DNA of 64,000 bases from Prolixibacteraceae bacterium. GTDB taxonomy: Bacteria; Bacteroidota; Bacteroidia; Bacteroidales; Prolixibacteraceae. The notes beneath the pieces are model-generated. The model saw nothing but the letters and a program-made list of their open reading frames with translations. It had not been told where the DNA came from and did no database searches. The stretch covers positions 1 through 64,000 of the forward strand of contig JAFLKN010000015.1 of the NCBI GenBank assembly GCA_019163175.1. Reading direction: 5' to 3'. The position numbers and the translations under genes were made by a program. Shown here one piece after another: positions 17,061 to 41,797 of the stretch (positions are counted from its first letter, which is position 1; each line of letters opens with the position of its first letter).

Positions 17061-17543
17061 TAATCCGATTTTAAATTCAGGATAGATAATATGATTTAGT
17101 CATAATCGCATGTTCTTGTTTTTGACAAAGATATTCAATATGAAATGTATTTATGTTTAGTATAGTATGCTTTTATAAGCAAAAACTATTGATATTTTTA
17201 ACTTGTCAATTATTTAACTCTCATATTCAATGCGTTCTATAATAATATTGAATGCTAAAGAACATTTTAGTTTCATCAATTTATGGGAAATACTCAACTA
17301 AACATTTTAAGTTCATCGAAAGAATAATAGAAACAGAATCCTTTTGATCCTTTTTTCAATCTAAATGTATAAAGGGAACCCCTTTAAACTTTGGTCAGGC
17401 ATAATCAGAGCATTGTGGATAAACAAAAAACACTATTCATTCTTAATAAAACATAAGTTAAATCTTCTTTTCTTGTCTTAATTTTTTATATTTGATTTTT
17501 TCATTTTTAAACCGACTTTGACTAATTCAACCCCAATAAGCTC
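17061..17543. other. Divergent intergenic region before the defence operon
   Basis: AT-rich, no ORF. It holds a small hairpin AAAGGG-AAC-CCCTTT (17371-17385) and a -7-like box at 17488-17495. It must carry the promoters for both the HNH gene (left) and the large operon (right). Confidence 0.5.
17488..17495 (+). promoter_or_regulatory. Possible -7 box of the DISARM-like operon
   Basis: TATATTTG fits TAnnTTTG, 49 bp before the start codon of the helicase gene. The -33 element is not convincing. Confidence 0.3.
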
Positions 17544-20500
17544 ATGAATATTTTTAAGATACACTCAAATATCATTAGCGATTACAAATCCTACATCAAA
17601 AGCTTTTTATCGATAAAAGATCCTCGGATTAAGGAAGTAGTTGAAAAAGCGTTTGAGGAATCAGGGTTTATGCCAGAACCATTGATTCAGTTTAATCCTT
17701 CATTCGATAAAGGACAGACATTAGAGGAATTGGTTGGAGAAGGTAAAATACACGAAGAGTTACCTGCCATCTTTGGGACATACAATCTATACAAACATCA
17801 GGTTGAAGCTTTAAAAATAGGAATTCAGGGGAAAGGGTTTGTTGTTACAAGCGGTACCGGTTCTGGAAAGAGTTTAACCTATTTGGCTACTATCTTCAAC
17901 AAACTGCTTCAGGATAACAGCACAAAGACTAAGGGAGTCAAAGCGATCCTGGTCTATCCAATGAACGCCCTGATCAATTCGCAGGAAGAAGAAATCAAGA
18001 AATACGAGCTGAACTATTTGATCAGCAAAACCCTGTCTGGCACTGTGGTACCAGCCGATAGGCTTACATTGGATGAGAAAATTGATTACCTAAAAAGTAT
18101 TACAACAAGCAGATTTCCCATTACTTATTCAAAATATTCCGGACAGGAAAGCCAGGAAGCCAGGGAGAGAATGAAAAAGGAAGTTCCGGATATCATTCTT
18201 ACCAACTACATGATGCTGGAATTGATTATGACCCGGCAAGCTGAACAATGGATGCGGGATTCGCTAAACAAACATCTCCAATTTCTTGTATTTGATGAGT
18301 TACATACTTATCGGGGAAGACAAGGATCCGACGTTTCTCTTTTGATCCGAAGAATTAAAAATCTGGCTCAAAATAAGATTACCTCCATTGGAACATCGGC
18401 AACAATGGCTTCAGGTGGGACAAAAGAAGAAAAGCAGCAGGCAGTAGCTGATGTTGCAAAAACCATATTTGACGATCAGTTTGATTTGTCGCAGATTATA
18501 GGTGAGTATCTGGTTACCTGCACAAATCCGGATAAAAAAAATCCAAACGAATGGGATCTCCAGGAGGCAATTGAAAAAGGTATAAATATCGAAGATGATG
18601 AAGATATCTTCTTTAATCACCCCATAGCCATATGGCTTGAAAATAGGATTGCATTAAAATATCTGGACGATGGCCACATTGAAAGAGGTACTCCCAAAAA
18701 GTTTTCGGCCATAGTTAAAGAACTTCAAAAGGAATCTGGCTCTGCAAAGACTAAGGTAGAAGCAACATTGAGAAACGTTCTTTTATGGGCTGAGAAACTG
18801 AATAACAAAGCCGCCACAAAATCAAATCGAAAATCGTTCCTGCCCTTCAGGTTTCACCAGTTTATTTCGCAGACCAATACTGTTTATCTTACCTTGGACC
18901 CCAATGACAAGCGTGAGATTACTGTAAAAAGCGGAAGGTATATCAAGGATAAAGGGGCTCAGGATAGTGACAAGTTTATTTACCCGGTTCTATTTAGCAG
19001 ATATTCGGGGCATGAGTTTATTTGTGTGACCAAGAATTTTGCGAATAATACGCTTATTCCGCGCAATCCGGACGAATCACCGGAAACGCTATCCTTTACA
19101 GAGGGGAAGAAAATGGATTTAACTGAATTGAATTTTGCGGATGGATACCTGCTCATTCCACAGGATGTCAATGATGAAATCTGGTCAGATGAAAATGAAG
19201 ACGATTTGCCTGATAGCTGGTATAAGGAAAATAAATCAGGCCGGGAGTTGTTGCCTTTTTATCGGTTCCAAATACCTCAAAAGATCTACTTTAACAATTA
19301 CGGCAAATTCTCGAATGAGCCTGTGTTTGAACAGTGGGGTTGGTATATTTCTGCCAAATTACGACTTGATCCGACTGCAGGTCTGATCTACGAAGACTCA
19401 AAGACGAATGAAAATACCAAGTTGATGCGCCTTGGAAATGAAGGTCGAAGTTCAGCCACAACGATCATGTCGTTTTCTGTGATTAAGTCGTTAAACGAGG
19501 AAGGCGAAGACATCCGGAATCAAAAACTTTTGAGCTTTACCGATAACCGGCAAGACGCATCACTGCAGGCCGGTCACTTTAATGATTTCCTGACAACTGC
19601 CAGATTAAGGTCAGCCGTTGGCTTTGCGCTTAAAGACGCTCCATCGGGATTGAAAGTGTATGATATTTCACAACGGACCTGCGAAAAACTGAAACTGAAA
19701 GAAAGTGAATATGCCCGAGTGTCGAATGATGAATGGCCGGATGAAGAGAACGAACGCGCGCTGAAAGATTTCCTGGTGATTCGCATTTTATACGATCTGA
19801 AAAGAGGTTGGCGCTATGTTTTACCCAATTTGGAGCAATGCGCCATGCTCAAAGTTGAATATGAAAAATTGGGGTTATACTGTCAGCAAGATAGTTTTTT
19901 CAAAGACCTACTACTTTTTAATCAAATTACTCCTTACAAGCGGGAAGAGATATTGATTCAGGTACTGAATTTCTTTCGGACTTCGTTTTCTATTAATCAC
20001 CCCATATTATCCGAAAAGCGAAGGGAAACAGAAGATTTTCTGAATCTGAAGCTGGATAATGATAAACTCTGGTCACTTGAAAGGGACGAGAAAATTGAGG
20101 CTGCAAGTTATATGGTCAGTCAAAACCCGGGTAAGACATTCCGCATTTATACAAACAGTATCGGTTCTCAATCAAATCTGGCAAAATATTTTAAACGTTT
20201 GCTTCGTGAGAATGGTCTGGATCCTTTAAAAAGAGATGCCTATATCGACTTTATCAATGGAGTTTGCCAGGTACTGAAAAAAGGAAATTTCCTGAAGGAT
20301 GAACCGATCAAAGGAGATAAAGGAACAGTTACCGGTTACCAGTTGCGGGCTGACAAGATTGTCTGGAAACTTGGTGATTGTGAAACCATCGAGTTGGACA
20401 ACGTGAGAATGTCATCATATAAAGCTCTGGATATAAAACCCAACACTTTTTTCCAGAAGCTGTATTCGATTGATTTTAATGGCTACAAAAAACAAATCAT

Positions 20501-22802
20501 AGGCCGCGAGCATACAGGGCAATTGGGTACGGATATTCGCATTGAGCGGGAAGCTGATTTTAGAAGCGGAAATATTTCTGCGTTGTTCTGCTCACCGACC
20601 ATGGAATTAGGGATTGACATAGCAGACCTGAATATCGTTCACATGCGCAACGTGCCACCAAGTCCGGCAAACTATGCCCAACGAAGTGGACGTGCAGGCC
20701 GCAGCGGACAAACTGCTTTGGTATTGACGTATTGTTCATCCGGATCACCCCATGACCGTAACTACTTTGAAGCGGCTGAAAAGATGGTTTCCGGCGTTGT
20801 TGTACCACCGCGAATTGATCTCAAAAATGAGGAATTGATTCGGACCCATTTCAACGCATACGTGTTGATGGAACTTGGTCTGCAAAAACTAAATATATCA
20901 GTAAGCGATATTCTTGATATTACCAAGACATTTGACTTACCGCTATTACCTGATTTGTCAGCCTACATTCAGGATCAGCAAACTAAATACAAGGATAAAT
21001 GGGTAGAAGGATTCAGGGGAATCATTCAGGGTATTGAGCCGCGATTAAGCGAAACTCACTGGTACAATCCAACATGGATAGAACGTCAGGCAGCAACTTT
21101 TTATACCCGTTTTGATTCGGCCATTGATCGATGGAGAATTTTATACCGGAATGCCAAAAAGATGGTTGACTTTGCAAATGCGATATTGGAAGACCCAACC
21201 ATCAAATACGACAGCGATCAGGCCCGAGAAGCACGGCGTCAGCGTGGCGTTGGTGAAAAGCAACAGTCGCTGTTGAAGAATGAACAGGATCAGCGGTTCG
21301 GGAACAATTCAGAATTCTATATTTTCAGGTATCTGGCATCTGAAGGATTCTTGCCGGGGTATAACTTTACCCGTCTGCCTGTTCGCGTATTTGTTGGATA
21401 TAAACATTCTGATCAGGGCGAATATATTTCAAGGTCGCGTTTTGTAGCTCTGAAAGAGTTTGGTCCGCAGAACCTGATTTACCACAACGGAAGCAAATAT
21501 GTGATTAACCGGATGATGCTGATGGATGCCGAGGCTAAAACACGACCGATTAAAATATCGAAGCAGACCGGATATGCATTTTTGGATGATGATGCTAAAT
21601 TAGCCAATAACGACCCCATCAACCATATTGAGCTGAAAGGTGAAAAGAATGTGGAAGTGATCCATCGGTTACTGGAAATCAGCGAATCGGAAGGAAAACC
21701 ACAGGAACGTATATCCTGTGAGGAGGAAGAACGAACGTCACAAGGTTTTATCATTGATCAGTATTTCAGGTATCCGGAAGGAATGGAAGCGACCATTCAA
21801 TCTGTCATCAAGTCAGGAGATTCGCCGCTGTTACGGGTTATTTACGGACCATCAACCGAGCTCATTCAACTCAACCGTAAGTGGAAAAGATCGAAGGAAT
21901 CCAACGGGTTTAATATCGATAACCGAAGCGGACGCTGGTTAAGGCAAGCTGAATTGGAAAAACAGGATATTAAGGATAATGCCAAAGAGGTGATGCTGTT
22001 TGCCCGGAATAATGCGGATAGTTTATACCTGCAGCCGGTGAAAGAATTAGGCATCGGTTCTGAACAGATTATTACTTTGAGTTATGCCCTGAAACGGGCC
22101 ATTGAAAAGCTTTTCCAGACCGAAGAGAGTGAAATAGGTGTTTGGATCATGGGGAACAACGAAGCCCCGAATATCATGATTTATGAAGCTTCCGAAGGTA
22201 GTTTGGGTATTTTATCGCAGTTGATTGAAGACCCGATTAAATTCAAACAGATCTTCGTTGAAGCCTATCAGTTGCTTCATTTTGATCCGGTGACCCGTCA
22301 AGACACACGGCCTGATTTACCCAAAGCGAACTATGAGGATATTTTATCTTACTACAACCAAAAGCATCACGATGTTTTGGACCGGTTTGGGGTAAAAGAA
22401 GCACTTGAAAAACTGATGGATTGCACCATCGAGAAGAGCGGAGATCACGGCGACCGTCAGGAACAATACAAATACCTGCTCGAAAACTACGATCAGAATT
22501 CATCGACTGAACTTCCTTTGATCAAATACCTCTATCATGGTGGATACGCATTACCGGATAAGGCTCAGGTCAACATGCCCGATTTTTATATCAGCATCGA
22601 CTTTGTGTACAATTCCGCCAACGGACCGGTTTTGATTTTATGCGATGGAAGTGTTCACGATGAAGTGGAGCAGAAAAAACAGGATGAACACAAACGTCAG
22701 CTAATGCGCGATGCCGGATATGACGTTGTTGAATGGCATTACACCGAAAAGCTGGAGGACTTGGTCCAGCGCAGAAAAGATGTATTCAGAAAAATCAGCT
22801 AA
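17544..22802 (+). CDS. Giant DEAD/DEAH helicase with DUF1998-like region and C-terminal nuclease-like domain (DrmA-DrmB/DruE-like)
   Basis: At 1752 residues this is a superfamily 2 helicase: Walker A TSGTGSGKS (102-110), LVYPMNALINSQEEE, DELHTYRGRQGSD (DEAH variant near 251), TSIGTSATMASGG, ALFCSPTMELGIDI and the arginine-finger motif QRSGRAGRSGQ (near 1046). A DUF1998-like block follows (near 1535; NIMIYEASEGSLGIL). The last 60 residues (ILCDGSVHDEVEQKKQDEHK, then GYDVVEWHY) resemble the Vsr/MTES_1575 nuclease ends of many defence helicases. The family includes DISARM DrmA+DrmB and Druantia DruE; one chain here would cover DrmA plus DrmB. It is followed after 3 bp by a SNF2-type helicase and then a methyltransferase, the partners seen in class 1 DISARM. 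Helicase identity is firm; system assignment is inferred. Confidence 0.85.
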   Translation: MNIFKIHSNIISDYKSYIKSFLSIKDPRIKEVVEKAFEESGFMPEPLIQFNPSFDKGQTLEELVGEGKIHEELPAIFGTYNLYKHQVEALKIGIQGKGFVVTSGTGSGKSLTYLATIFNKLLQDNSTKTKGVKAILVYPMNALINSQEEEIKKYELNYLISKTLSGTVVPADRLTLDEKIDYLKSITTSRFPITYSKYSGQESQEARERMKKEVPDIILTNYMMLELIMTRQAEQWMRDSLNKHLQFLVFDELHTYRGRQGSDVSLLIRRIKNLAQNKITSIGTSATMASGGTKEEKQQAVADVAKTIFDDQFDLSQIIGEYLVTCTNPDKKNPNEWDLQEAIEKGINIEDDEDIFFNHPIAIWLENRIALKYLDDGHIERGTPKKFSAIVKELQKESGSAKTKVEATLRNVLLWAEKLNNKAATKSNRKSFLPFRFHQFISQTNTVYLTLDPNDKREITVKSGRYIKDKGAQDSDKFIYPVLFSRYSGHEFICVTKNFANNTLIPRNPDESPETLSFTEGKKMDLTELNFADGYLLIPQDVNDEIWSDENEDDLPDSWYKENKSGRELLPFYRFQIPQKIYFNNYGKFSNEPVFEQWGWYISAKLRLDPTAGLIYEDSKTNENTKLMRLGNEGRSSATTIMSFSVIKSLNEEGEDIRNQKLLSFTDNRQDASLQAGHFNDFLTTARLRSAVGFALKDAPSGLKVYDISQRTCEKLKLKESEYARVSNDEWPDEENERALKDFLVIRILYDLKRGWRYVLPNLEQCAMLKVEYEKLGLYCQQDSFFKDLLLFNQITPYKREEILIQVLNFFRTSFSINHPILSEKRRETEDFLNLKLDNDKLWSLERDEKIEAASYMVSQNPGKTFRIYTNSIGSQSNLAKYFKRLLRENGLDPLKRDAYIDFINGVCQVLKKGNFLKDEPIKGDKGTVTGYQLRADKIVWKLGDCETIELDNVRMSSYKALDIKPNTFFQKLYSIDFNGYKKQIIGREHTGQLGTDIRIEREADFRSGNISALFCSPTMELGIDIADLNIVHMRNVPPSPANYAQRSGRAGRSGQTALVLTYCSSGSPHDRNYFEAAEKMVSGVVVPPRIDLKNEELIRTHFNAYVLMELGLQKLNISVSDILDITKTFDLPLLPDLSAYIQDQQTKYKDKWVEGFRGIIQGIEPRLSETHWYNPTWIERQAATFYTRFDSAIDRWRILYRNAKKMVDFANAILEDPTIKYDSDQAREARRQRGVGEKQQSLLKNEQDQRFGNNSEFYIFRYLASEGFLPGYNFTRLPVRVFVGYKHSDQGEYISRSRFVALKEFGPQNLIYHNGSKYVINRMMLMDAEAKTRPIKISKQTGYAFLDDDAKLANNDPINHIELKGEKNVEVIHRLLEISESEGKPQERISCEEEERTSQGFIIDQYFRYPEGMEATIQSVIKSGDSPLLRVIYGPSTELIQLNRKWKRSKESNGFNIDNRSGRWLRQAELEKQDIKDNAKEVMLFARNNADSLYLQPVKELGIGSEQIITLSYALKRAIEKLFQTEESEIGVWIMGNNEAPNIMIYEASEGSLGILSQLIEDPIKFKQIFVEAYQLLHFDPVTRQDTRPDLPKANYEDILSYYNQKHHDVLDRFGVKEALEKLMDCTIEKSGDHGDRQEQYKYLLENYDQNSSTELPLIKYLYHGGYALPDKAQVNMPDFYISIDFVYNSANGPVLILCDGSVHDEVEQKKQDEHKRQLMRDAGYDVVEWHYTEKLEDLVQRRKDVFRKIS

Positions 22803-22805
22803 ACT

Positions 22806-25631
22806 ATGAGCTCAACCACGATAAATAAACCCGGCAGCATGGTCAAATACCGGGAACGCGAATGGATTGTTTTGCCTTCCGAAGATGAAGACCTGATGGT
22901 ACTTAAACCATTGGGTGGCTCTGACGAAGAAATAACAGCCATCTACCTGCCCCTTCAATCGATGCCGGGAGAAAAAGCTGAACCAGCCTCATTTGCATTG
23001 CCCAGCACGAATGATATTGGAGCCTTTGAAACCGCGAAGGTTCTGTTTGATGCTTCTCGCCTGTCGTTTCGAAATGCCAGCGGACCGTTTCGCTGTATGG
23101 GTAAACTCTCCTTCAGGCCACGGTCGTACCAATTGGTGCCTTTGGTTATGGCGCTCAAACATCAGGATGCCGTGCGAATGTTGATTGGTGATGATGTGGG
23201 TATCGGTAAAACGGTTGAAGCGTTGATTATTCTGAAAGAATTGATGGAACGCGGTGAAGTGAAGAAATTTGCCGTAATCTGTCCACCACATTTGTGCGAA
23301 CAGTGGCAAAAAGAGTTGAAAGACAAGCTGGATATGGATGCCGAGATTATTCGCTCCAGTACTGCTGCTTCGCTGGACCGCAAACTTCCGGATGACCGGA
23401 GTGTGTTTTTTCATTTTCCGTATCAGGTGATTTCAATCGACTACATCAAAGCAGATAAACGCCGTGGAATCTTCCTGAACGACTGTCCGGATTTTATCAT
23501 TGTGGATGAAGCACATACCTGTGCGCTGCCTGCCGGAGCATCGTCGAAGAACCAACAGCAGCGATATGCTTTGTTGCATGACATCGCGCTGAAAACCGAC
23601 AAGCACATTTTGTTGCTCACCGCCACGCCACACAGCGGAAAGGATGATGAATTTAAATCGTTGCTGGGGCTGGTTAATCCGGAGTTCAGGACTTATAATT
23701 TCGAAAGTCTGGACCAAACTAATAGGAGAAAAATTGCCCGTCATTTTGTACAGCGGAAACGCGAAAACATCAAGCGATGGCTGAAAGAAGAAACGCCGTT
23801 TCCTGATCGGGATTCGAAGGAAATTGGATTTTTCCTGGCACCCGAATACAAAGATTTTTACCAGGTGATGCTCGATTTTGCCCGTGGATTAAGCAAGGAA
23901 GGCGAAAAGAAAAATACTGCTCGAATCCGCTATTGGGCGGCACTGGCTTTGCTTCGCGGAGTGATGTCGAGCCCCGCAGCAGGATACGAAATGTTGCTGA
24001 ACCGGCAGTCGAAAAAATTGAGTGCAGATGAACTCATCGACATTCAGGAACAGGAAAATCCGCACATCGAAAAGTTGTTTTTTGATACCGATAGCAGTCA
24101 GGCTGAATTGATTGATATTGCCGATCTGGAAGAATCGGAACTGGAAGAAATCACAGTTCTTTGCGAGCAGATTCAAACACTGGCCTGTCTGGGAAAAGAC
24201 AACAAAGCCAAAGCTGCCCTGAAGATCATTACTGGTTGGGTAAATGAGAAAGAGGTATGTAATCCGATCATCTTCTGTAAGTACATCGCTACAGCCAAAT
24301 ATCTGGGGAAAATCTTAAAGGAAAATCTTCCGGCGAAAATTGATGTACAGACCATTACTTCTGAATATGCCGATGAGCAACGAAAAGAAGCCATCGACCT
24401 GATGGGAAAAAGTGAAAAGCGCGTTTTGGTAGCTACCGATTGTTTGTCGGAAGGGATCAATTTGCAGGAGCAATTTACCGCCGTGCTGCATTACGATTTG
24501 CCATGGAACCCTAACCGCATAGAACAGCGGGATGGACGTGTTGACCGTTACGGTCAGGATGCTCCGGTTGTTAAATCGTATTTGCTTTGGGGCGAGGACA
24601 ATCCCATCGACCAGATTGTTTTGAAGGTTATTATCCGTAAAATCCGCGATATACAAAAGGCAACCGGTGTCTCCATTTCCATTGGCGAAGATAACCAGTC
24701 GATTATGGATGCCGTGTTGAATGAAATTCTGGTAGCCGATAAAAAAGCGGTTGACCAGGGCGTACAGATGAGACTCTTCGATGATAAGATTACCAACGAA
24801 CTGGAAGCTGCCCGTCAAAAAGCCGAAAACCTCCGGAGTATTTTTGCACACGAAGCCATCAAGCCTGAAACCATTGAGGCCGATTTGAAAAGTGTGGATG
24901 AAGCCATTGGAGACATGGATTCGGTGGAACATTTCGTGATCAATGCGGTAACGCATCTTCAGGCTACTATCCGGAGAGATTCGGAAGGTTATTTGCTTTT
25001 CCCTCAAAATTTACCCCATCACCTGAAAGCTCATTTCGGAAATGAAACCGAAGTGAAGGTGAGTTTCGATTCGCCCACGCCAAAAGGTTACCGGTACATC
25101 GGACGAAACCATCAGTTTGTGGAACAACTGTGTCAGTTTCTGCTGGCCCTGGCTTTCAACGGACATCAGGAATACGAACCGGTTGCCCGGGTGGCCGAAA
25201 TCCAAACCGATAGTGTCAGCCTGAAAACCACGCTGGTGATGTTCAGGGTTCGGAATGTGATTAAGGAGGTTTTGGGAAACCGCGAAGTGATTGCCGAAGA
25301 AATGTATTTGTGGGGCTACGAAGGTTCGGGTGACAGCGCGCGTTCCATTCAATTTCAGGAGGCCAAACAGTTACTTCTGAATGCCCGGAGTTTGAGTAAC
25401 CTGCCCATTGAACGGCAGAAAGAAGATCTGGAAAGGGAGTTGGTACATTTCGACGAACTGAAAGGACGGTTTATGGATTTAGCCATCGAACGGGCCGAAA
25501 ATCTGATTGAAGCTCATGGACGTTTCAAGGAACTGGTGGGAGGACGCCGCTACGAAAAGGCTACTCCGGTGCTGCCTCCCGATGTGATGGGAGTTTATAT
25601 CCTGATGCCAAAACCTAAAATGAACATCTAG
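22806..25631 (+). CDS. SNF2/RapA-type helicase, DrmD-like
   Basis: A 941-residue SF2 ATPase of the SNF2 class: DDVGIGKTVEALIIL (Walker A, near 128-142), CPPHLCEQWQKEL (Ia), FIIVDEAHTCA (DEAH near 233), LLTATPHSGKDDEF (III), then ATDCLSEGINLQEQF (V) and IEQRDGRVDRYGQ (VI, near 571). The arrangement with RVDRYGQ is that of RapA-like enzymes and of DISARM DrmD. The C-terminal third is without a recognisable domain. It starts 3 bp after the giant helicase and ends 2 bp before the methyltransferase, so all three are translationally coupled. It probably translocates on duplex DNA in the restriction complex; that role is inferred from DISARM and BREX parallels. Confidence 0.88.
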   Translation: MSSTTINKPGSMVKYREREWIVLPSEDEDLMVLKPLGGSDEEITAIYLPLQSMPGEKAEPASFALPSTNDIGAFETAKVLFDASRLSFRNASGPFRCMGKLSFRPRSYQLVPLVMALKHQDAVRMLIGDDVGIGKTVEALIILKELMERGEVKKFAVICPPHLCEQWQKELKDKLDMDAEIIRSSTAASLDRKLPDDRSVFFHFPYQVISIDYIKADKRRGIFLNDCPDFIIVDEAHTCALPAGASSKNQQQRYALLHDIALKTDKHILLLTATPHSGKDDEFKSLLGLVNPEFRTYNFESLDQTNRRKIARHFVQRKRENIKRWLKEETPFPDRDSKEIGFFLAPEYKDFYQVMLDFARGLSKEGEKKNTARIRYWAALALLRGVMSSPAAGYEMLLNRQSKKLSADELIDIQEQENPHIEKLFFDTDSSQAELIDIADLEESELEEITVLCEQIQTLACLGKDNKAKAALKIITGWVNEKEVCNPIIFCKYIATAKYLGKILKENLPAKIDVQTITSEYADEQRKEAIDLMGKSEKRVLVATDCLSEGINLQEQFTAVLHYDLPWNPNRIEQRDGRVDRYGQDAPVVKSYLLWGEDNPIDQIVLKVIIRKIRDIQKATGVSISIGEDNQSIMDAVLNEILVADKKAVDQGVQMRLFDDKITNELEAARQKAENLRSIFAHEAIKPETIEADLKSVDEAIGDMDSVEHFVINAVTHLQATIRRDSEGYLLFPQNLPHHLKAHFGNETEVKVSFDSPTPKGYRYIGRNHQFVEQLCQFLLALAFNGHQEYEPVARVAEIQTDSVSLKTTLVMFRVRNVIKEVLGNREVIAEEMYLWGYEGSGDSARSIQFQEAKQLLLNARSLSNLPIERQKEDLERELVHFDELKGRFMDLAIERAENLIEAHGRFKELVGGRRYEKATPVLPPDVMGVYILMPKPKMNI

Positions 25632-25633
25632 CC

Positions 25634-28600
25634 ATGCAATACACTGCCATCAACATACAGGGAAACATTGTTTCGGGCGAAATTCTGGAAAAGATCCGGA
25701 CCGAAGACACCAAACACCAGTCGCAGGCCGATTTTGGTCTCGACCGAAATACCAGCATCCGCGACGAGATTGGGATTGCCTGGTCGGCTGCAAGGGCGCA
25801 CTGGTCGGCTTTCCAGATGCGGCGCGAACGACTGAAAGACAACGACAGCGGAACCTCCGAAACACGTCAGGGCTGGATGATTCCGTTTCTGCGCGAATTG
25901 GGCTACGACCTCGAAAAATCGACCTCCGAATTCATCAACGGAAAATCGTATGCCGTCAGTCACAGGGCTGCCAACCGCGACGGATTTCCAGTTCATCTGG
26001 TGGGAATTAACCAATCGCTCGACAAACGGCCCGAAGTGGGCGGAACCCGTTTAAGTCCTCATGCCTTGTTGCAGGAATACCTGAACAACAACGAGCACTT
26101 GTATGCCCTCATTTCGAATGGTCGTTTTGTTCGTTTGCTGCGCGATGCTACCCGTCTTTCGAGGTTGAGTTACCTCGAATTCGATCTGGAACGCATCATG
26201 GAGGAAGACCTGTTTGCTGAATTTGCGCTGCTTTTCCGTGTGATTCATGCAAGCAGGATGCCTGTAACCCGCGACTCCGGAGAAGAAGCGTTTATTGAAT
26301 ATTACCACCAGGAAGCCTTGAGTTCCGGTTCGCGTATCCGTGAAAAATTGAGCGAAGCGGTGGAGAAATCGCTGAAACTGCTGGCCAATGGTTTGCTGAA
26401 ACACCCTTCGAATACCGATCTCCGGAATTTGGCTTTGCAGGGAAACCTGAAGCCTGATGCTTATTATTTGCACCTGCTGCGACTGGTTTACCGCGTTTTG
26501 TTCCTGATGGTGATTGAAGAACGGCAACTGATTTATCCCGATAAGCGTGACGAAGCCACCAACAAACTGAAAGACTTTTATTACCGGTTTTACAGCATCA
26601 ACCGGCTCACGAGACTGGCCGAAAAGCTGATTTATGTCGATCCGCGAAAAACCGACCTTTGGAAATCGTTGCTGGCCACCTTTCAGTTGTTCGAGAACGG
26701 AACATACAGCCAGCGACTGGGCATCCAGCCGTTAGGCTCGGGCTTGTTTGATTCGGATGCGCTGGGAAATTTGTCGGTGCAGAACCTCGATAACGGAACT
26801 TTGCTGAATGTGCTTCAACTGTTGGTGACCTTCGAAAATGAGAACCACCAGCGGGTGCGTGTGAATTATGCCGACCTTGATGTGGAAGAATTTGGTTCGG
26901 TGTACGAAGGTTTGCTCGAATACGATGCCAGCCTGAAAGAAATTAACGGACAACCCACTTTTTCGTTCATTACCGGCGATGCCCGTTCCAGAAGTGGTTC
27001 GCATTACACTCCCGAAGAACTGGTAAAACCACTCATCAAACACTCCCTCGATTACATCATCGAAGATCGCCTGAAAGTCCTCCCAACCGTCATTGCGATT
27101 CCGAGTGCTCGGGAGAAGCAATCTCAAATTGAACAACAATTGCTTTCCATCCGCGTTTGCGACGTTGCCTGCGGCTCCGGCCACATCCTTTTGAGTGCAG
27201 CCCGACGCATTGCCGTTGAACTGGCCTGTGTACGCGAAGGTGCCGAACAACCTTCACCAACCTATTTCAGGGCTGCCATGCGCGATGTAGTAAAAAATTG
27301 TATCTACGGGGTGGATAAAAACCCGCTGGCTGTAGAGCTCTGTAAAGTGGCCTTCTGGCTCGAAAGCCACAACCCAGGCGAACCGTTGGGATTCCTCGAT
27401 CACCACATTAAATGCGGAGACTCCATTGTGGGGCTGGCTCACCGAGAAGAGTTGGAAAACGGCATTGCCGATGATGCTTTTAATACCTTGCCGAAGGATG
27501 AAAAAGAAATTGCTGCCGCCTTTCTAAAAAGGAACAAACAGGAACGTCGGAAACGCGAAGATAAGCAAGCCGGCACTCAGTTTAAATTAACCGATACCAT
27601 TGACAATACGGTACAGGAAAGTGTAACCGAATACCGCTCGTTTAATCAATTGCCCGAACATACTCCTGATGAAATTGCAGTAAAAGCCCGAGCATATCGG
27701 AAATTCACTAATGGTAAAGGCTATAACTTTCTAAAAGCAATGGCCGATACACAGGTCGCACAGTTTTTTATCCCGAAAACCATTGCAAACAAAGATCGAC
27801 TGATTACCGATAGCGATTATCTGACCATTCTTCAGGGTTTTGGAGGATGGCAAAACCAACAAACCGCATATGCAGCAGTGGTTGCCCAAGAAAAAAGATT
27901 TTTTCATTGGTTTTTAGAGTTTCCTGAAGTATTTCAGAATGGTGGTTTTGATTGTGTGTTGGGAAATCCACCTTTTCTTGGTTTTAGTAAATTGACTGGT
28001 AGTTTTGGTCATGATTTTTTAAATTGGGTGAAATATTCATTCTCTCCTGCGAAAGCTGTTGATATAGTAACGTATTTTTTTAGAAGGATTTTTGATACAT
28101 TATCATCAAATGGATTTCAAGCTTTAATATCAACAAACACAATTGCTCAGGGAACTGCAAGAGAAGGAGGACTTGAATTTATTTTAAATAATGGTGGTGA
28201 AATAACATTTGCAATTAAGTCAATAAAATGGCCTGGGAAAGCTGCCGTTGAAGTTTCCTTAATTTCGATTCACAAAGGGAAATGGAGTAAAGGTTGTTAT
28301 TTAGGGTTAAAGAAAATATCAAAGATATCATCCTATTTAGAAGAAGATCAAGGCTTAAGCTCACCGTTTACTCTAATACAGAATGGTAATAAAAGTTTTG
28401 AAGGAAGTAAGCCTTATGGTTTAGGATTTCTATTGGAATCGACAGAAGCATTTTCCTTAATATCGAAAGACAAAAAAAATTCTGAAGTGATTTTCCCATA
28501 TTTAAATGGACAGGATTTGAATAATGACTTTGCTCAAAGACCTTCAAGATGGGCAATTAGCTTTTTCGATAGGTCAGAAAATGAATCTAAGGAGTATTAT

Positions 28601-29611
28601 GAATGCTATTCAATCATAGAGGAAAAGGTTAAGCCTGAAAGGCAAAGGTTGAAAGCCGATGGCAGTTTTGAATTGAGAGAACCAATGCCTACTCGTTGGT
28701 GGCAATATGGTGAAAAAAGACCGGCATTATATAGAACAATTAAAAACATGGACAGGGTAATTGTTATTGCCAAGACTAGTAAAACGGTTGCTTTCTCATT
28801 CACTTCTACAAATCAGATTTTGAATTCCAATCTAGCAATTATTGCATTTCAAGAATCAAGATATTTTGCAATTCTTCAATCATCTTTTCATTTTTATTGG
28901 TCAATGAAATATTGTACCACAATGAAAACCGATTTGATATACATAATTTCCAACACTTTTGAACCCTATCCTTTTCCTGTAAATCCGACTTTTGGAATAA
29001 AACAGAACTTAGATAAAATAGGCGAAACCTACCATGAACACCGTCGCCAGTTGATGCTAAAAATACAGTTAGGTCTGACCAAAACCTACAATGCCTTCCA
29101 TGCCAAAGAGATCAGACCGGGTATTACCACTTTGGCTTTAGAGAACCTCGATAAAAAAGCGATTGAAAAACAATACGGCAAAGAAGTCTGGAACCTCTGG
29201 AACCACCTGCAAAAAAGCCAAGATACCTGCACTATCGAAGAAGCCATTGCCGGTATCATCCGGCTCCGCGAGTTGCATGTGCAAATGGATAGCGCCGTGC
29301 GGGAGGCGTATGGGTGGGCCCCTTCGACAAGCTCAGGGAGCGGTGCAGCAATACAGCTGCGTCATGATTTTTACGAAGTCGATTATTTGCCCGAAAACGA
29401 TCGCATCCGCTACACCATCCACCCCGATGCCCGCAAGGAAATCCTCAAACGGCTGCTGGAGCTGAACCACCAAATCCACGAGGAAGAAGTAAAAGCCGGC
29501 TTGTGGGATAAGAAAAAGGCAGGGAAGAAAGAATATCCGACAAAGGGTTTTGAGTTGGGGGATGTGGTGAAGGAGGATGAAAGGGGATATGGGCAGGGGA
29601 GGTTGTTTTAA
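25634..29611 (+). CDS. Adenine-specific DNA methyltransferase, PglX/DrmMI-like (Eco57I class)
   Basis: The 1325-residue protein has the gamma-class N6-adenine methyltransferase motifs: SAM-binding motif I DVACGSGHILLSAARR (near 508) and catalytic motif IV VLGNPPFLGF (near 775). The C-terminal end (AYGW near 1230, RYTIHPDARKEILKRLLELN, final GYGQGRLF) is shared by PglX/DrmMI-type enzymes. No PD-(D/E)XK nuclease is evident at the N-terminus, so it is a modification subunit, not a type IIG enzyme. It should mark self DNA so that the two upstream helicases spare it. An in-frame repeat near 29319-29340 adds a PSTSSGSG loop. Codon bias shifts within the gene: the middle-to-C-terminal target-recognition region (about 27900-29000) is clearly more AT-rich than the flanks, as expected for a swapped specificity domain. 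Confidence 0.88.
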   Translation: MQYTAINIQGNIVSGEILEKIRTEDTKHQSQADFGLDRNTSIRDEIGIAWSAARAHWSAFQMRRERLKDNDSGTSETRQGWMIPFLRELGYDLEKSTSEFINGKSYAVSHRAANRDGFPVHLVGINQSLDKRPEVGGTRLSPHALLQEYLNNNEHLYALISNGRFVRLLRDATRLSRLSYLEFDLERIMEEDLFAEFALLFRVIHASRMPVTRDSGEEAFIEYYHQEALSSGSRIREKLSEAVEKSLKLLANGLLKHPSNTDLRNLALQGNLKPDAYYLHLLRLVYRVLFLMVIEERQLIYPDKRDEATNKLKDFYYRFYSINRLTRLAEKLIYVDPRKTDLWKSLLATFQLFENGTYSQRLGIQPLGSGLFDSDALGNLSVQNLDNGTLLNVLQLLVTFENENHQRVRVNYADLDVEEFGSVYEGLLEYDASLKEINGQPTFSFITGDARSRSGSHYTPEELVKPLIKHSLDYIIEDRLKVLPTVIAIPSAREKQSQIEQQLLSIRVCDVACGSGHILLSAARRIAVELACVREGAEQPSPTYFRAAMRDVVKNCIYGVDKNPLAVELCKVAFWLESHNPGEPLGFLDHHIKCGDSIVGLAHREELENGIADDAFNTLPKDEKEIAAAFLKRNKQERRKREDKQAGTQFKLTDTIDNTVQESVTEYRSFNQLPEHTPDEIAVKARAYRKFTNGKGYNFLKAMADTQVAQFFIPKTIANKDRLITDSDYLTILQGFGGWQNQQTAYAAVVAQEKRFFHWFLEFPEVFQNGGFDCVLGNPPFLGFSKLTGSFGHDFLNWVKYSFSPAKAVDIVTYFFRRIFDTLSSNGFQALISTNTIAQGTAREGGLEFILNNGGEITFAIKSIKWPGKAAVEVSLISIHKGKWSKGCYLGLKKISKISSYLEEDQGLSSPFTLIQNGNKSFEGSKPYGLGFLLESTEAFSLISKDKKNSEVIFPYLNGQDLNNDFAQRPSRWAISFFDRSENESKEYYECYSIIEEKVKPERQRLKADGSFELREPMPTRWWQYGEKRPALYRTIKNMDRVIVIAKTSKTVAFSFTSTNQILNSNLAIIAFQESRYFAILQSSFHFYWSMKYCTTMKTDLIYIISNTFEPYPFPVNPTFGIKQNLDKIGETYHEHRRQLMLKIQLGLTKTYNAFHAKEIRPGITTLALENLDKKAIEKQYGKEVWNLWNHLQKSQDTCTIEEAIAGIIRLRELHVQMDSAVREAYGWAPSTSSGSGAAIQLRHDFYEVDYLPENDRIRYTIHPDARKEILKRLLELNHQIHEEEVKAGLWDKKKAGKKEYPTKGFELGDVVKEDERGYGQGRLF
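29319..29340. repeat. Bacteroidota REP-like repeat inserted in the methyltransferase gene
   Basis: The stretch contains CCCTTCGACAAGCTCAGGG, a dispersed imperfect-palindrome repeat seen widely in Bacteroidota genomes (my recollection, not searched). It reads as PSTSSGSG in the protein, between AYGW and the following HDFYE segment that are normally close together. Confidence 0.6.
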
Positions 29612-29629: not shown

Positions 29630-30109
29630 ATGGCCAGTTATTTCTCTTTTATTGGAAAAAATATAGAACCACTATCTCAAAATAAAAGACATAGTAGATT
29701 AATGATGCCTTATCAAGGTCAATTAGCGAGGGCATTTTTCACTAAATACAAAATTAAATTACCATTGGCTAAAGGCGTACTTCTCGATGAAACAAAAATT
29801 TTACATGGTAAAGTTTTTTACATCCATAAAGTAAAAGATAAGAAGGATGCTGATAATATTAGCAAACCTCTTTGGGATGCCTTACAAGAAATCGGATTTT
29901 ACAAAAATGATAATCAGATATTACATATTCAAGCTGTTAAGATCGATGCAAAAAAGCTTGAAAATGAAATTTTGTCGTTTGATTTAACAGATGTGAAAGA
30001 TCCTGATTTTTCAGAATTAGTTTATTTTATCCTAGATCCTGCGAATTCAAACAAACGGCTATTATACATTCGAATTAGTGATTTTGAAAGTGAAAATGTA
30101 AAATTTTGA
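29630..30109 (+). CDS. RusA-family Holliday-junction resolvase-like endonuclease
   Basis: A 159-residue protein. The core KKDADNISKPLWDALQEIG, followed by FYKNDNQILHIQAVKIDAK, matches the RusA signature (K-D-x-D-N, K-x-x-x-D-A-L, D-D/N-x-Q). The aspartates near 71 and 74 and the one near 90 are the metal-binding acids of RusA, which cuts four-way junctions as a homodimer. It starts 18 bp after the methyltransferase and ends 3 bp before the next gene, so it is in the operon. In phages RusA resolves replication intermediates; in a defence operon it may cut branched phage DNA. Family call good, role inferred. Confidence 0.78.
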   Translation: MASYFSFIGKNIEPLSQNKRHSRLMMPYQGQLARAFFTKYKIKLPLAKGVLLDETKILHGKVFYIHKVKDKKDADNISKPLWDALQEIGFYKNDNQILHIQAVKIDAKKLENEILSFDLTDVKDPDFSELVYFILDPANSNKRLLYIRISDFESENVKF

Positions 30110-30112: not shown

Positions 30113-30775
30113 ATGAAAAGAGAAGTGTTATCAATTGAAGAAAGTTTGGTCGAAATGGAGTTGTCCAAGATAGTAGATAAATACAAAAAAGAAGGTTTTA
30201 CCTTTATAAGAGAGAAGCTCTCAAAAAATTATGTCTTTGATTTATTTGCAGAAAATAAGAAAACTGGGGAGAAGATCGTTTTCGAAGTTAAATCAGAGAA
30301 ACATATCTCAAAGAGGATAATTCAAGAAATGTATAAAAGAAAAGAATTTTTAAAATTAGAATTTCCTGGGGTAAAGTTCATTCTTGTGGTAGCCAGAAAA
30401 TCTGAGCCGTCATTTATTAAGCCATCTGCTTTAAATAAGTTGCTACTTTCATATATTATTCAGAATAAAAAAATAATAGCTCAAATAAAGAGGATCATTC
30501 CAGAATTTTTAGAAAAGGCGAATTGTGTTGTTTCTGATGTTGAATTATCAAAAATAGATTTCAACGATTTCAAAGATATTAATATGATAGGTTATGGGAC
30601 TTTTATGTTTTGGAGCTATTTATCTAATGAAGAGTTTGAAGGAAAATCCTTTAGTGACGGGTTACCCTTCCGATTTAATATTAATCTTACATATACTGGT
30701 CAATTTCCATTTGGATATCAAATCACCAATAATAGCAAGATTGAATTTGATTTTTCTGAATTTCAACGTGACTAA
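30113..30775 (+). CDS. PD-(D/E)XK nuclease-like protein
   Basis: A 220-residue protein. Residues 45-65 (VFDLFAENKKTGEKIVFEVK) have the D-(x)n-E-x-K arrangement of the PD-(D/E)XK nuclease fold, preceded by a helix (IVDKYKKEGFTFIREKLSKN) and followed by a helix and a strand (KFILVVARKS), as in Mrr- and REase-like proteins. The C-terminal 100 residues (starting around NMIGYGTFMFWSY) are not recognised. It starts 3 bp after the RusA gene, with a GAAGTATG junction. The catalytic residues are Asp, Glu, Lys by pattern; activity is inferred. Its place next to a methyltransferase suggests a restriction role. Confidence 0.65.
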   Translation: MKREVLSIEESLVEMELSKIVDKYKKEGFTFIREKLSKNYVFDLFAENKKTGEKIVFEVKSEKHISKRIIQEMYKRKEFLKLEFPGVKFILVVARKSEPSFIKPSALNKLLLSYIIQNKKIIAQIKRIIPEFLEKANCVVSDVELSKIDFNDFKDINMIGYGTFMFWSYLSNEEFEGKSFSDGLPFRFNINLTYTGQFPFGYQITNNSKIEFDFSEFQRD

Positions 30776-30911: not shown

Positions 30912-32876
30912 ATGTCTAATGCTAGGATAATTATACGATCTCCGGAAGAGTCTCATAAGGCATTTATCTCTCAGTTTCTAAATGCAAAAGTCTCAATTGA
31001 GGATAGGGATATCGAAAATGATATATATTTTAAACAAGATAATTACAAAGTTGATAAGCTCTTTTTTAAAGATATTCATTTTAATGGACAGCTCTTTTTC
31101 GATGGGTGTGATATAAGAGATGGGATCAAATTTATTAACTGTACTTTTGAAAAAGCATTGGTTTTCCATCGCTGCAAAACTAAAAAAAGTGATTACGATT
31201 TTTTACCAGGAGATAAGTCAATAGAATTCATTGATTGCAAAATCAATTTACAGATAGATGTTCGATTTTGTAAGTTTGAAGGAGGAATTATTTTTAACAA
31301 TTGTACGATAGAAGATGCTTATTTCGAACAATTTATTGTTTCTATTGGAGGTGGTATTGAGTTCAGGAATTCAACTGAAGTAAACAAATCAATTCGTATA
31401 ATTAACTGCAATTTATCAAACGGTGGAATTCGTCTTAATGGTAGCACTTTTAAAGGGGCTCTTAGATTCGAAAATAATACCCTTGGATCTTATGACTTCA
31501 CCTTTTCAAATTTTATAAAAAATATCTTTATCTGGGCAGGATATTGTACTTCTATTACCTTTTATAAAAGTCAGTTTGAAGAAGATTTCACCATCCAAAT
31601 TGTCAAAGTAAAAGATTCAGTGTCTATTATTGAATGTGAGTTTAAGAAAATATTCAAAATAGAATTGGATGAAAAGAATGGAAATAAGAGAGGATTAATA
31701 AATTCCATCTATCTAAGTCAGACGGATTTTCTTAATGTTTTCTCTTTAAAAAAATTCAAAACTGATAAGTCATCGATAAAGAAAATAGATTTGATATTTC
31801 AAAACTTAAATGGATCATTTCATTTTGATGATATTTCTATTGAGGAACTACATATTTCAGGTTATAATATTAGTTCTCGTGTTGTCCTTGAAAATGTAGT
31901 TCTTAAAAAATTTGACCTCGAAAAATTTAGAAATTCTGGCAGTATAGATTTTATTAATGTCAGACCAGATGGAGCTAATAGTATGATAAGTTTTAAAAGT
32001 TCCATCTTGGGGTCTTTTGCTTTTGTCAATTGTCAATTAGATACATATCAGCAATATGAAATTCATGATTCCATTTTCGATCAAGTAATTTCATCTGGTA
32101 CTAAGTGGTTTGATTTTAATCAAATTGCTAGGAATTTAAAACCTCTCAACCGAAATTGGTTAAAACTTTTGCAGCGATATATCAAGATTAAGGTTTTTTT
32201 CTTCAATGTTTTTAAAACGAGAATCGATATAGAGAAAACACCTAAAGTATTAAAAATTGAAAGACAAATTTTAGTTTCAATTTTCAAAACTATAAATTGG
32301 ATTAGTTGTCTATTTTTCAACATCAAAATGCTTTTCTTTAATCTTCTCCCTGACAATGGAGATATCCAGAAATTATATCAAATTCGGGAAATATTCAGAC
32401 AATTAAAAGTCTCGATGGACAAACAAGGTAATCGTATTCAAAGCCTTTTCTTTCAAAGCCAAGAATTCAATGCCTACGAAAAGGAACTAAGGCTATCTCA
32501 CCGAATCTGGAAACCAGAACGTCTTATTTTATGGTCAAACAGATCAAACTCACACGGACAGGACTGGCTAAAACCGATATTCTTGGGCATATTATTTACA
32601 GGCTTATGGTTCATTTTTATGGTTATTTCTATGAATCCAAACTTAGGGATACACTGGCCATGGAACTGTAACTTTTTAACTACCTATAAAATTTATGTAG
32701 AGTACTTTAAAGGCGTTCCTGATTTATTCAATCCTACCTTCCGGTTAGATCTTGTTTTCGCTACACAGACTAATGAATTTACATTCTCGACATACTTTTG
32801 GGCTCTAATTCAACGAATTAGCATTTCATATTTCATTTTCCAAACTATCTCAGCATTTAGAAAATATATGAAATAG
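30912..32876 (+). CDS. Membrane protein with pentapeptide-like beta-helix and C-terminal membrane segments
   Basis: The 654-residue protein consists mainly of irregular repeats with a F-x-N/D-C/S/G-x-F/I rhythm (IKFINCTFEKALVF, IEFIDCKI, IIFNNCTIED, IRIINCNLSNGGIRL), typical of a right-handed beta-helix related to pentapeptide repeats. After residue 500 comes a helical block (NAYEKELRLSHRIWKPERL) and two membrane segments: FLGILFTGLWFIFMVIS (about 557-575) and the very end, ISYFIFQTISAFRKYMK. This layout is shared by Bacteroidota pentapeptide/ion-channel-like proteins. A role as membrane effector, opened after infection, is inference. Preceded by a 136-bp gap, but same strand as the nuclease genes. 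Confidence 0.65.
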   Translation: MSNARIIIRSPEESHKAFISQFLNAKVSIEDRDIENDIYFKQDNYKVDKLFFKDIHFNGQLFFDGCDIRDGIKFINCTFEKALVFHRCKTKKSDYDFLPGDKSIEFIDCKINLQIDVRFCKFEGGIIFNNCTIEDAYFEQFIVSIGGGIEFRNSTEVNKSIRIINCNLSNGGIRLNGSTFKGALRFENNTLGSYDFTFSNFIKNIFIWAGYCTSITFYKSQFEEDFTIQIVKVKDSVSIIECEFKKIFKIELDEKNGNKRGLINSIYLSQTDFLNVFSLKKFKTDKSSIKKIDLIFQNLNGSFHFDDISIEELHISGYNISSRVVLENVVLKKFDLEKFRNSGSIDFINVRPDGANSMISFKSSILGSFAFVNCQLDTYQQYEIHDSIFDQVISSGTKWFDFNQIARNLKPLNRNWLKLLQRYIKIKVFFFNVFKTRIDIEKTPKVLKIERQILVSIFKTINWISCLFFNIKMLFFNLLPDNGDIQKLYQIREIFRQLKVSMDKQGNRIQSLFFQSQEFNAYEKELRLSHRIWKPERLILWSNRSNSHGQDWLKPIFLGILFTGLWFIFMVISMNPNLGIHWPWNCNFLTTYKIYVEYFKGVPDLFNPTFRLDLVFATQTNEFTFSTYFWALIQRISISYFIFQTISAFRKYMK

Positions 32877-33644: not shown

Positions 33645-35486
33645 ATGACTACATTAACCAATAAAATTGAAGCCCACGACCGAAGTATCGACGAAGTTTT
33701 AAATAACAAAAAGTACACGGTAGATTACTTTCAACGCGAATTTAAATGGGAAGAGCGCCATATTGAACAATTGATTTCTGACCTTACTTCCACGTTTATG
33801 GAATATTTCAGACCGACACATTCGCCCAAAGAAGTTGCCAATTACAATTCGTATTATTTGGGCCCTTTTGTTGTAAGTGTAAAAGATGGTCATCGCAGCA
33901 TTATTGATGGTCAGCAAAGATTGACTTCATTAACTCTATTCCTCATATATCTTAATCATCTGCAAAAGGGTATTGGTTTATCAAAAATCCTTGAGCCATT
34001 AGTCTTCTCGGAGATGTTTGAAGAAAAAACGTTTAACATCCAGGTCCCTGAGAGAGAAAAATGCCTGAATGAATTATATAAGAAAGGCGAATACAAACTG
34101 TGTGATGATGATGATGAATCTACCCAGAATATGGTAAATCGTTATCAGGATATTACTCAATCTTTCCCTGAGGAACTGAAGAATGGAGCATTATCGTTCT
34201 TTATTGATTGGCTGAAATACAGGGTAATATTGGTCGAGATAATTGCCTATTCAGATGAAAACGCGTATACCATCTTTGAAACAATGAACGATCGTGGGTT
34301 AAATTTAACTCCAGCAGAAATGCTTAAAGGATTCATTCTCTCAAAATTTACCGATAAGGACAATAAGAAACGCCAAAAGGCAAATGAACTTTGGAAGGAG
34401 TCGATGCAAAAACTTCATATTTACGATAAGGATGAAGATCAGCGATTCTTCCAGTCCTGGCTTAGGGCACAATACGCAGTAACTATCAGACCAGGGAAAG
34501 CAGAATCGAAAAATGAAGATTTCGAAAAGATTGGAACCCGTTTTCATAGCTGGTTTCGGGAGAACCTCGATAAAATTGGCCTTGGAAATGAAAAGCCAGA
34601 AAGTTTTGAACTATTCATTGAAAAAGATTTCAAATTCTTTTTAAAGCAATACTTGACTATAAAGAAGTCCGAACAAACATTTAATGCTTCGCTGGAATAC
34701 ATATATTACATTAATCGGTGGGGTATTGCAGATTCTTTACGGTATCCGTTATTGCTGGCACCTTTAAACAAGGAAGATGATGATGAACTCATTATCAAAA
34801 AAATGAACCTTGTGGCTAGATACATTGAAACATTTGTTGTTCGAAGGTCGCTTAATTTTAGACTTTTTGCAGCCAGTTCGATCCGATATACGATGTACTC
34901 GCTGGTTAAAGAAATCAGAAATAAAAATTTGCTTGAACTTACCACAATTTTAAAAGGTAAGCTGGACTCAATGGAGGAAACCATTGATGGAATGACGAGA
35001 TTTAGATTACACGGACAAAATGCGTGGTTTATAAAGTTCCTACTCTCACGTATGACTTCATTTGTTGAAAGACAAGCAGGTGATGGATCAACATTTGAAA
35101 AATATTATTACAATCCGGGTGGAAAACCATTTGAAATTGAGCACATATGGGCAGATTCTTTTGAGGATCACAAAGATGAATTTGATCAGGAAACAGAATT
35201 CATCGAAATTAGAAATCGTATCGGAGCTTTACTTTTATTACCTCGTGGCACAAATCAATCATATGGTAAAAAACCATATTCCGAAAAAATAGCCCATTAC
35301 ATTAAAGAAAATCTATTAGCAAAAACACTTTGTGAAGGAACATACCTATCAAACCCCAATTTTCTGAATATGAAGGAAGCACTTACCCTACCTTTTAAGC
35401 CGCATACTCAGTTTAAAAAACAAGATATTGCTGAAAGACAAAATCTATATAAAGAAATTTGCAAAAGGATATGGTCATGGGAATAA
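33645..35486 (+). CDS. GmrSD-type restriction protein (DUF262-DUF1524)
   Basis: The 613-residue fusion has an N-terminal DUF262 domain with YFQREFKWEE (about 29-38) and the nucleotide-hydrolysis motif IIDGQQRLTSL (about 86-96), and a C-terminal DUF1524 HNH-type nuclease with FEIEHIWADSF (near 497), the pattern E-x-x-H-I, and RNRIGALLLLPRGTNQSYG (the N-x-x-N-x-x-Y half). GmrSD, SspE and BrxU enzymes of this build use NTPs and cut glucosylated or otherwise modified phage DNA, and BrxU complements a host restriction system. Here it would complement the upstream methyltransferase system. Its stop codon overlaps the ATG of the HNH gene that follows. Confidence 0.82.
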   Translation: MTTLTNKIEAHDRSIDEVLNNKKYTVDYFQREFKWEERHIEQLISDLTSTFMEYFRPTHSPKEVANYNSYYLGPFVVSVKDGHRSIIDGQQRLTSLTLFLIYLNHLQKGIGLSKILEPLVFSEMFEEKTFNIQVPEREKCLNELYKKGEYKLCDDDDESTQNMVNRYQDITQSFPEELKNGALSFFIDWLKYRVILVEIIAYSDENAYTIFETMNDRGLNLTPAEMLKGFILSKFTDKDNKKRQKANELWKESMQKLHIYDKDEDQRFFQSWLRAQYAVTIRPGKAESKNEDFEKIGTRFHSWFRENLDKIGLGNEKPESFELFIEKDFKFFLKQYLTIKKSEQTFNASLEYIYYINRWGIADSLRYPLLLAPLNKEDDDELIIKKMNLVARYIETFVVRRSLNFRLFAASSIRYTMYSLVKEIRNKNLLELTTILKGKLDSMEETIDGMTRFRLHGQNAWFIKFLLSRMTSFVERQAGDGSTFEKYYYNPGGKPFEIEHIWADSFEDHKDEFDQETEFIEIRNRIGALLLLPRGTNQSYGKKPYSEKIAHYIKENLLAKTLCEGTYLSNPNFLNMKEALTLPFKPHTQFKKQDIAERQNLYKEICKRIWSWE

Positions 35487-41771: not shown

Positions 41772-41797
41772 ATTGTGAATTTTACTTATCAAATAGG

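Follow-up and report, generated by a model that had tools for sequence, protein, structure and literature searches.

A probable ARMADA type I anti-phage cluster in a Prolixibacteraceae bacterium, with a helicase from a zinc-less branch

The window analysed here is a stretch of 64,000 nucleotides (positions 1 to 64,000 of the forward strand of contig JAFLKN010000015.1, assembly GCA_019163175.1) from a Prolixibacteraceae bacterium. Three adjacent genes within it, at 17544-29611, are best explained, with fairly good confidence, as an ARMADA type I anti-phage system of a sub-branch whose helicase lacks zinc-binding cysteines, working by the mechanism proposed below. According to the main text of the preprint by Bell et al. 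(September 2025, PMC12458937), ARMADA combines a YprA helicase, a BrxHII-like helicase and a PglX-like methyltransferase; type I systems generally follow the order YprA, SNF2, methyltransferase and carry a Vsr-type nuclease on the YprA C-terminus. A wider proposal, which we hold at slightly under even confidence, is that the sub-branch is a zinc-free subtype of ARMADA I spread over many phyla, in which three zinc modules were jointly replaced by nearly fixed polar residues. In this proposal the methyltransferase would be a plug-in specificity subunit, with a recognition domain exchanged between strains and switched by a recombinase in some Bacteroidota, giving a phase-variable two-motor restriction system.

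The three open reading frames (ORFs) are uninterrupted, lie on the plus strand and are separated by gaps of 3 and 2 bp. The first (17544-22802) encodes an ArmC-like helicase-nuclease of the YprA family with 1752 aa, in which RecA1 (residues 84-289) is followed by inserted domains, RecA2 (985-1055), a canopy of OB, CON and DUF1998-like parts, and a predicted C-terminal nuclease of the Vsr/DUF559 type. The second (22806-25631) encodes an ArmA-like helicase of the SNF2/RapA type, similar to BrxHII, DrmD and DpdE (941 aa), while the third (25634-29611) encodes an ArmB-like adenine methyltransferase similar to PglX, DrmMI and MmeI (1325 aa), with an S-adenosylmethionine motif near residues 510-519 and NPPF at 778-781. 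The arrangement thus agrees with the preliminary description, drawn from the DNA letters alone, which had also asked whether the set recurs in other genomes and had named a separate clade with conserved synteny as support. Both were found: the order YprA-SNF2-methyltransferase, on one strand, occurs in 48/48 zinc-less loci that hold all three genes, the window included, and because of this recurrence the gene set is not a chance neighbourhood. Nine zinc-less loci without one or two of the genes stand at contig ends. Other ARMADA I loci show this order nine times, SNF2-methyltransferase-YprA seven times and methyltransferase-YprA-SNF2 once, and 15 are partial. No second YprA helicase was found in the genome of the window, where the other seven matches are short and reach at most 31 bits.

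The zinc state was compared in helicases taken from 110 loci with a helicase match, which came from GTDB genomes, viral contigs, plasmids and relatives of the window. Removal of two duplicates (L022, L072) and of nine loci with an ORF below 1450 aa (L025, L026, L043, L073, L074, L094, L118, L119, L128) left 99 rows of at least 1450 aa. Ten ligand columns were used, and a helicase with at most one cysteine in them was called zinc-less. By this measure 57 rows are zinc-less (41 with no cysteine, 16 with one); ten out of ten are kept in 41 rows and nine in a single row, L125; no intermediate was seen among the 99 rows. The 57:42 ratio of lost to kept is not a frequency, because the 80 genome loci are the best 80 of 514 confirmed ones. 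In the 32 other ARMADA I rows, all eleven ligand columns are cysteine without exception; the eleventh (1357) retains a lone cysteine in 31/57 zinc-less rows. The residues standing in place of the cysteines are themselves nearly fixed in the zinc-less branch: D609 in 57/57, S485 in 56/57, D1599 in 54/57 and S1596 in 44/57.

The affected columns fall into three modules of the helicase, all on the plus strand. In the beta-barrel insert (residues 485-612, 18996-19379) the window has S485, S488, D609 and A612 in place of the four cysteines of other ARMADA I helicases, and in the OB-fold insert (1339-1360, 21558-21623) S, T, D and N stand where the others have cysteine. In the MZB/DUF1998-like region (22077-22340) a Pfam match at residues 1512-1578 is followed by L1592, N1596 and D1599 in columns that are cysteine in other ARMADA I helicases. 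According to the preprint's main text, the beta-barrel of the type I lineage carries two or more conserved CxxC motifs, which the branch of the window lacks, and the DUF1998 zinc cluster characterises the YprA family; Dpd is named there as the group in which the DUF1998 cysteines were lost, and the branch of the window lacks these too (PMC12458937). In passages of a study of DrmAB, DUF1998 was proposed to act as an allosteric relay (PMC9142583).

A helicase tree was built from helicase-core columns, with the zinc columns excluded. In the careful tree of 96 rows, in which three long outgroup rows were left out, the 57 zinc-less rows form one clade (bootstrap 98, Shimodaira-Hasegawa-like approximate likelihood ratio test 99), and the clade has a support of 99 in a quick tree of all 99 rows. 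The zinc state changes once on the helicase tree, against 30.5 times in shuffles. In the SNF2 tree the same zinc-less loci lie on one side of a branch with support 100, and the methyltransferase tree gives the same split with one change, at a branch support of only 45. Loss of zinc appears the likelier direction than gain, because cysteines stand in these columns in the rows of ARMADA II-like and Druantia type.

Zinc-less members were found in Bacteroidota, Chlorobiota, Pseudomonadota, Planctomycetota, Acidobacteriota, Spirochaetota and others. Missing cysteines could also arise by decay or misalignment, the helicases being in the course of degeneration, and the Pfam MZB match of the full-length window protein, just under its cut-off, would fit such an account. 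We consider it very improbable, since the zinc-less rows retain the helicase motifs, with the Walker A lysine in 55/57 (two gaps), the residues standing instead of cysteine hardly vary across phyla, and no intermediate state occurs among the 99 rows. The pattern also repeats in a draw of 395 genomes of the phylum, 34 of which had a match: the 25 proteins of at least 1400 aa read from it comprised 15 of the lost kind and ten with 8-11 of the eleven cysteines (eight with all eleven, two distant ones with eight). Four of these 15 repeat earlier loci (L162, L163, L165 and L171 being L035, L052, L045 and L065).

The identity of the proteins was examined among the 48 window ORFs of at least 120 aa, 30 of which were scanned with Pfam and ten with PADLOC (best 25 matches per protein). 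The helicase matches DEAD, Helicase_C and, weakly, MZB/DUF1998 (23.2 bits against a cut-off of 24.2); by Pfam, MZB/DUF1998 is present in 61/62 members of the alignment used for its C-terminal half. Modelled as two halves (residues 1-1120 and 962-1752) from alignments of 61-62 sequences, the protein gave confident models (predicted local distance difference test 90.4 and 81.3), and the best PDB match of both is MrfA/YprA (6znp); the C-half also matches, more weakly, chain 7s9v_B of DrmAB. The C-terminus looks like a PD-(D/E)xK nuclease of the DUF559/Vsr type, as predicted from conservation together with weak DUF559 and MTES_1575 matches. Its motif (22509-22658, plus strand) comprises E1656, D1686, D1701 and H1705, which are kept in the zinc-less branch in 57/57, 57/57, 55/57 and 56/57 rows. 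The second protein matches SNF2-rel_dom and Helicase_C, and the third an Eco57I/MmeI methyltransferase and the MmeI target recognition domain, with DrmMI as best PADLOC model, in line with its earlier designation as PglX/DrmMI-like. Calling the SNF2 protein DrmD-like was partly right: it is an SNF2 helicase with DrmD and BrxHI-II among its matches, but its best PADLOC model is DpdE.

The preliminary description placed the cluster close to class 1 DISARM, with drmA and drmB joined in one polypeptide and drmC absent. Such a DISARM variant would account for the matches of the SNF2 and methyltransferase proteins to the DrmD and DrmMI models and for a YprA-family motor, but it seems highly unlikely. 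The YprA protein scores 286.5 bits with its best PADLOC model, DruE3, against 47.3 for the best DrmA model, and the SNF2 protein reaches 296.8 with DrmD, where the NCBIfam cut-off is 610. The nuclease-like C-terminus also speaks against it, as does the grouping of the helicase with homologues from the same three-gene set in a tree without a DrmA row. Class 1 DISARM has separate drmA and drmB genes and typically drmC, and the window has neither feature. There is a single YprA gene, nearest to DruE models and fused as in Druantia and ARMADA, so that the supposed new drmA-drmB fusion falls away. The absence of drmC held up: no phospholipase D (PLD) protein was found among the 30 scanned window proteins, nor DrmC among the PADLOC matches listed for ten, and a drmC elsewhere in the genome did not emerge, its two PLD proteins being located on a different contig and some 65 kb past the window.

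Other known systems were considered and set aside. Druantia type III (DruH-DruE) resembles the window in that DruE3 is the best match of the helicase, but no window neighbour matched a DruH model, and the DruE3-type rows L126 and L127 are placed at the opposite end of the tree, with their zinc cysteines present. BREX, excluded already in the preliminary description, was rejected here too, as no PglZ family was found among the 30 Pfam-scanned proteins and neither PglZ nor BrxC among the PADLOC matches listed for ten. The sole PglZ-domain protein found in the genome has 518 aa and, with a receiver part recognised by eye, resembles a PorX-type response regulator. Dpd was rejected because the Pfam scan of 30 window proteins showed no family of 7-deazaguanine synthesis.

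The closest fit is ARMADA type I, for which the main text of the preprint gives the same order, YprA, BrxHII/RapA-like, PglX-like, with a nuclease of the PD-(D/E)xK/Vsr kind on the YprA C-terminus (PMC12458937). A BrxA-like insert and a MarR-like domain are further features of type I. The CxxC zinc motifs of the beta-barrel, OB insert and DUF1998, which are described features of ARMADA I helicases, are absent from the window, and it is therefore a variant of ARMADA I; the system itself is defined by clade and gene set. In the helicase tree, 89 ARMADA I rows separate from the ARMADA II-like and Druantia rows. ARMADA type II of E. coli NCTC 12900 has the same three kinds of protein as the window, but in the order SNF2-methyltransferase-YprA with ArmD, and forms a separate clade. 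The type II-like rows L027-L029 and L123, named by order and tree, keep the zinc cysteines. An undescribed sub-branch between DISARM and Druantia had originally been suspected; the separate branch and conserved synteny stand, but the branch is not undescribed, because it was published as ARMADA in that preprint (main text, PMC12458937).

Some further loci deserve mention beside this classification. L028, L029 and L123 are type II-like clusters, with the SNF2 gene first, the methyltransferase gene next and YprA last. Two of the three belong to genomes from the same family as the window, and the Thermus locus L123 has an NYN-domain gene inside the cluster. L032, on plasmid MP1 of Deinococcus radiodurans, is a zinc-type ARMADA I locus whose methyltransferase is annotated as two ORFs. 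L184, L185 and L186 (genomes G458, G450 and G473) hold truncated ARMADA helicases of 477 aa with a common end point, and L185 has a second truncated copy of 525 aa. The genes beside them look, by eye, like BREX pglZ/brxL, as if a BREX end had replaced the remainder of ARMADA.

The methyltransferase differs from the helicases in the way it varies between close relatives. The nearest relative of the window locus is that of genome G008, of the same genus, with a helicase 96% identical; the two helicases together are 96-98% identical. Over its first 600 residues the methyltransferase is 96-100% identical (one bin 84%), followed by 68-88% at residues 601-850, 24-56% at 851-1150 and 94% at 1151-1200. 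The target-recognition domain (PF20466, residues 922-1115, 28397-28978 on the plus strand) lies within the replaced stretch. Judged from these comparisons, the recognition domain is exchangeable, having been replaced in a same-genus relative while the helicases stayed near-identical. Extra fragments of a methyltransferase C-terminus in direct orientation lie near the gene at L024:1374-1805 and L053:22922-23182 and are possibly remains of such exchange.

In the mechanism proposed, the recognition domain of the methyltransferase would select the site at which the enzyme marks host DNA. Phage DNA without the mark would be where both motors, the SNF2 translocase and the helicase-nuclease of the YprA family, load and begin to unwind, and the C-terminal Vsr-type nuclease of the YprA protein would cut this unmarked DNA without killing the cell. 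Marking, sensing and cutting are drawn by analogy with BREX and type I restriction-modification and are probably of this kind. Because the methyltransferase would set the specificity of the whole complex, the proposal has the recognition domain replaced, or in some relatives perhaps switched by inversion, while the helicases remain unchanged. For the E. coli type II system, the preprint's main text reports that protection depends on all four genes, on the ATPase motifs and on the NPPW motif of the methyltransferase, that two further motif changes cause partial loss, and that protection is non-abortive (PMC12458937). Passages of a 2026 review count ARMADA with the systems in which unmodified DNA is restricted through a mechanism still unknown (PMC12904381).

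The main rival to this mechanism, which we rate as unlikely though deserving of weight, would have the helicases confer specificity by sensing DNA ends and single-stranded structure, in the way suggested for DrmAB, with host protection as the sole role of the methyltransferase. According to passages of the DrmAB study, this complex binds 5' overhangs and is damped by methylation independent of a given sequence (PMC9142583); the resemblance of the YprA C-half to MrfA and DrmAB also fits. However, a helper that only protected the host would hardly agree with the need for the NPPW motif in protection itself in E. coli type II, and the sequence that is read seems to matter, given that recognition domains are exchanged.

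A possible switch of specificity was found in some relatives. Among 64 loci with a methyltransferase of at least 1000 aa and at least 1.2 kb downstream (seven duplicate loci left out), four carry, tail to tail behind the gene, an inverted second recognition domain and C-terminus with 47-55% protein identity: L036 in Niabella, L039 in a Chryseobacterium bin, L062 in Pedobacter and L166 (genome G514). At codons 881-886, never more than four codons from one shared homologous position, each of the four loci has the start of its exact repeats; the exact runs there measure 57, 18, 57 and 227 nt, and the sequence is 61-67% alike overall. Column shuffles, a simple null blind to conserved blocks, equalled the longest run of a locus in 0/2000 cases for all four. 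The next gene is in 4/4 cases a tyrosine recombinase of 383-388 aa, with Phage_integrase, arm and SAM-like domains in the two tested. The four recombinases are 61-79% identical to one another, the next relative among the loci reaching 36% and plasmid relatives less than 32% (best 10 of 16); at E 1e-70 the recombinase was found in 1/395 genomes of the phylum draw and 1/397 genomes of G514's family, both being G514 itself. Goldfarb and colleagues are said to have described in 2015 an inverted pglX in BREX with a like layout. By analogy with inverting type I systems, cassette and recombinase may form a specificity switch: work on inverting hsdS describes a recognition part duplicated in inverted order, where recombination can switch specificity (PMC7394358). 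The four loci share this layout but lie within ARMADA, where such switching is a proposal.

Several points weigh against the account given so far. The inverted cassette is rare (4/64 loci) and absent from the window, no locus was seen in both orientations, and cross-species flips of recognition cassettes were sought and not found. In 4/4 loci the silent cassettes resemble other species' silent cassettes better than expressed ones, which speaks against frequent flipping; flipping would be rare or biased. The rarity, the single orientation and the likeness of the silent copies, as if they stayed in place, would suit stable or dead duplicates, a reading that we regard as a serious contender, though not the favoured one. 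Against it stand the common starting point and exact runs of the repeats, the outcome of the shuffles and the neighbouring recombinase gene in all four loci. Returning to the proposed ARMADA I system, exchange is not confined to the recognition domain, because the methyltransferase C-terminus behind it also differs from G008 (last bins 70, 78 and 32%). Protection, the need for motifs and non-abortive action come from E. coli type II only, in the main text of the preprint (PMC12458937). The assignment to ARMADA I is based on gene content and order, on domains and on a position apart from the ARMADA II-like and Druantia rows, in a tree without a published type I or DISARM row. Whole-model template modelling scores to MrfA are low (0.17-0.33), and the Vsr-type nuclease is weak by Pfam, at 14-15 bits in the window, under both cut-offs; in the C-half alignment DUF559 is matched in 30/62 members, MTES_1575 in 17/62 and Vsr in 1/62.

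The junction between the SNF2 and methyltransferase genes serves as a slot for further genes, with at least one extra gene in 15/48 complete loci, and the gap between YprA and SNF2 never exceeds 400 bp in these 48. Cargo was read from the locus list as a gap of more than 400 bp with an ORF other than a piece of a split methyltransferase. By Pfam it comprises AbiEii with a DUF6088 partner (L020), Schlafen AlbA_2 (L051, L083, L101), PD-(D/E)xK_13 (L049, L050), a PLD nuclease (L038), GmrSD (L056), DUF1016 (L024) and SMC/AAA (L034). The cargo of L059 and L085 resembles that of L051 by eye only, and no Pfam family was matched in that of L066, L098 and L069. The slot is empty in the window and holds the AbiEii pair in its 96% relative G008, which gives a natural pair with and without cargo. 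Neither this slot, nor the zinc loss of the sub-branch, nor the exchange or inversion of recognition domains in ARMADA was found in the main text of the ARMADA preprint or in literature searches. The slot, the zinc loss and the exchangeable recognition domain are also missing from the preliminary description.

The cluster lies in a region whose G+C content is 41-48% across 18-28 kb, compared with 28-33% at 12-18 kb and 30-34 kb. A leader 5' of the first gene (17443-17543, plus strand) opens the part that resembles the G008 copy in nucleotide sequence, the similarity starting at 17443. A consensus promoter scan did not exceed shuffles, with 28 found and 29.2 expected. At its ends, the segment common to both genomes shows no inverted repeats and no shared direct repeats, only two chance-like direct matches of 12-13 bp in the window. 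To the right of the cluster an integrase (40287-41543) stands beside a tRNA-Asn gene (41796-41871); an attachment-site repeat for it was sought and not found. Neighbouring genes match HTH_36, HNH, RusA and AHJR-like families. The RusA-like (29630-30109) and AHJR-like (30113-30775) genes, with gaps of 18 and 3 bp, were considered as operon members and left out of the system because no homologue was found among the proteins of other loci. Further along the island are a 654-aa pentapeptide-repeat protein whose C-terminal part appears hydrophobic by eye (30912-32876) and a GmrSD-type restriction protein followed by an HNH protein (33645-36385), likely a further defence unit. A 163-aa protein without a Pfam match (36392-36883 in the window, L021:10642-11130), 90% identical between the window and G008, lies some kb downstream of ARMADA in both; the genes between differ, and no other flanking protein matched.

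The best matches of the three window proteins in PADLOC-DB of 2023 are DruE, DpdE and DrmMI, so that one system is scattered over three. Recognition-domain exchange suggests that it is the methyltransferase that decides what ARMADA attacks. A natural branch without the zinc of DUF1998 and of two other modules, in which motor and nuclease residues are kept, makes the role of zinc in these helicases testable by comparison.

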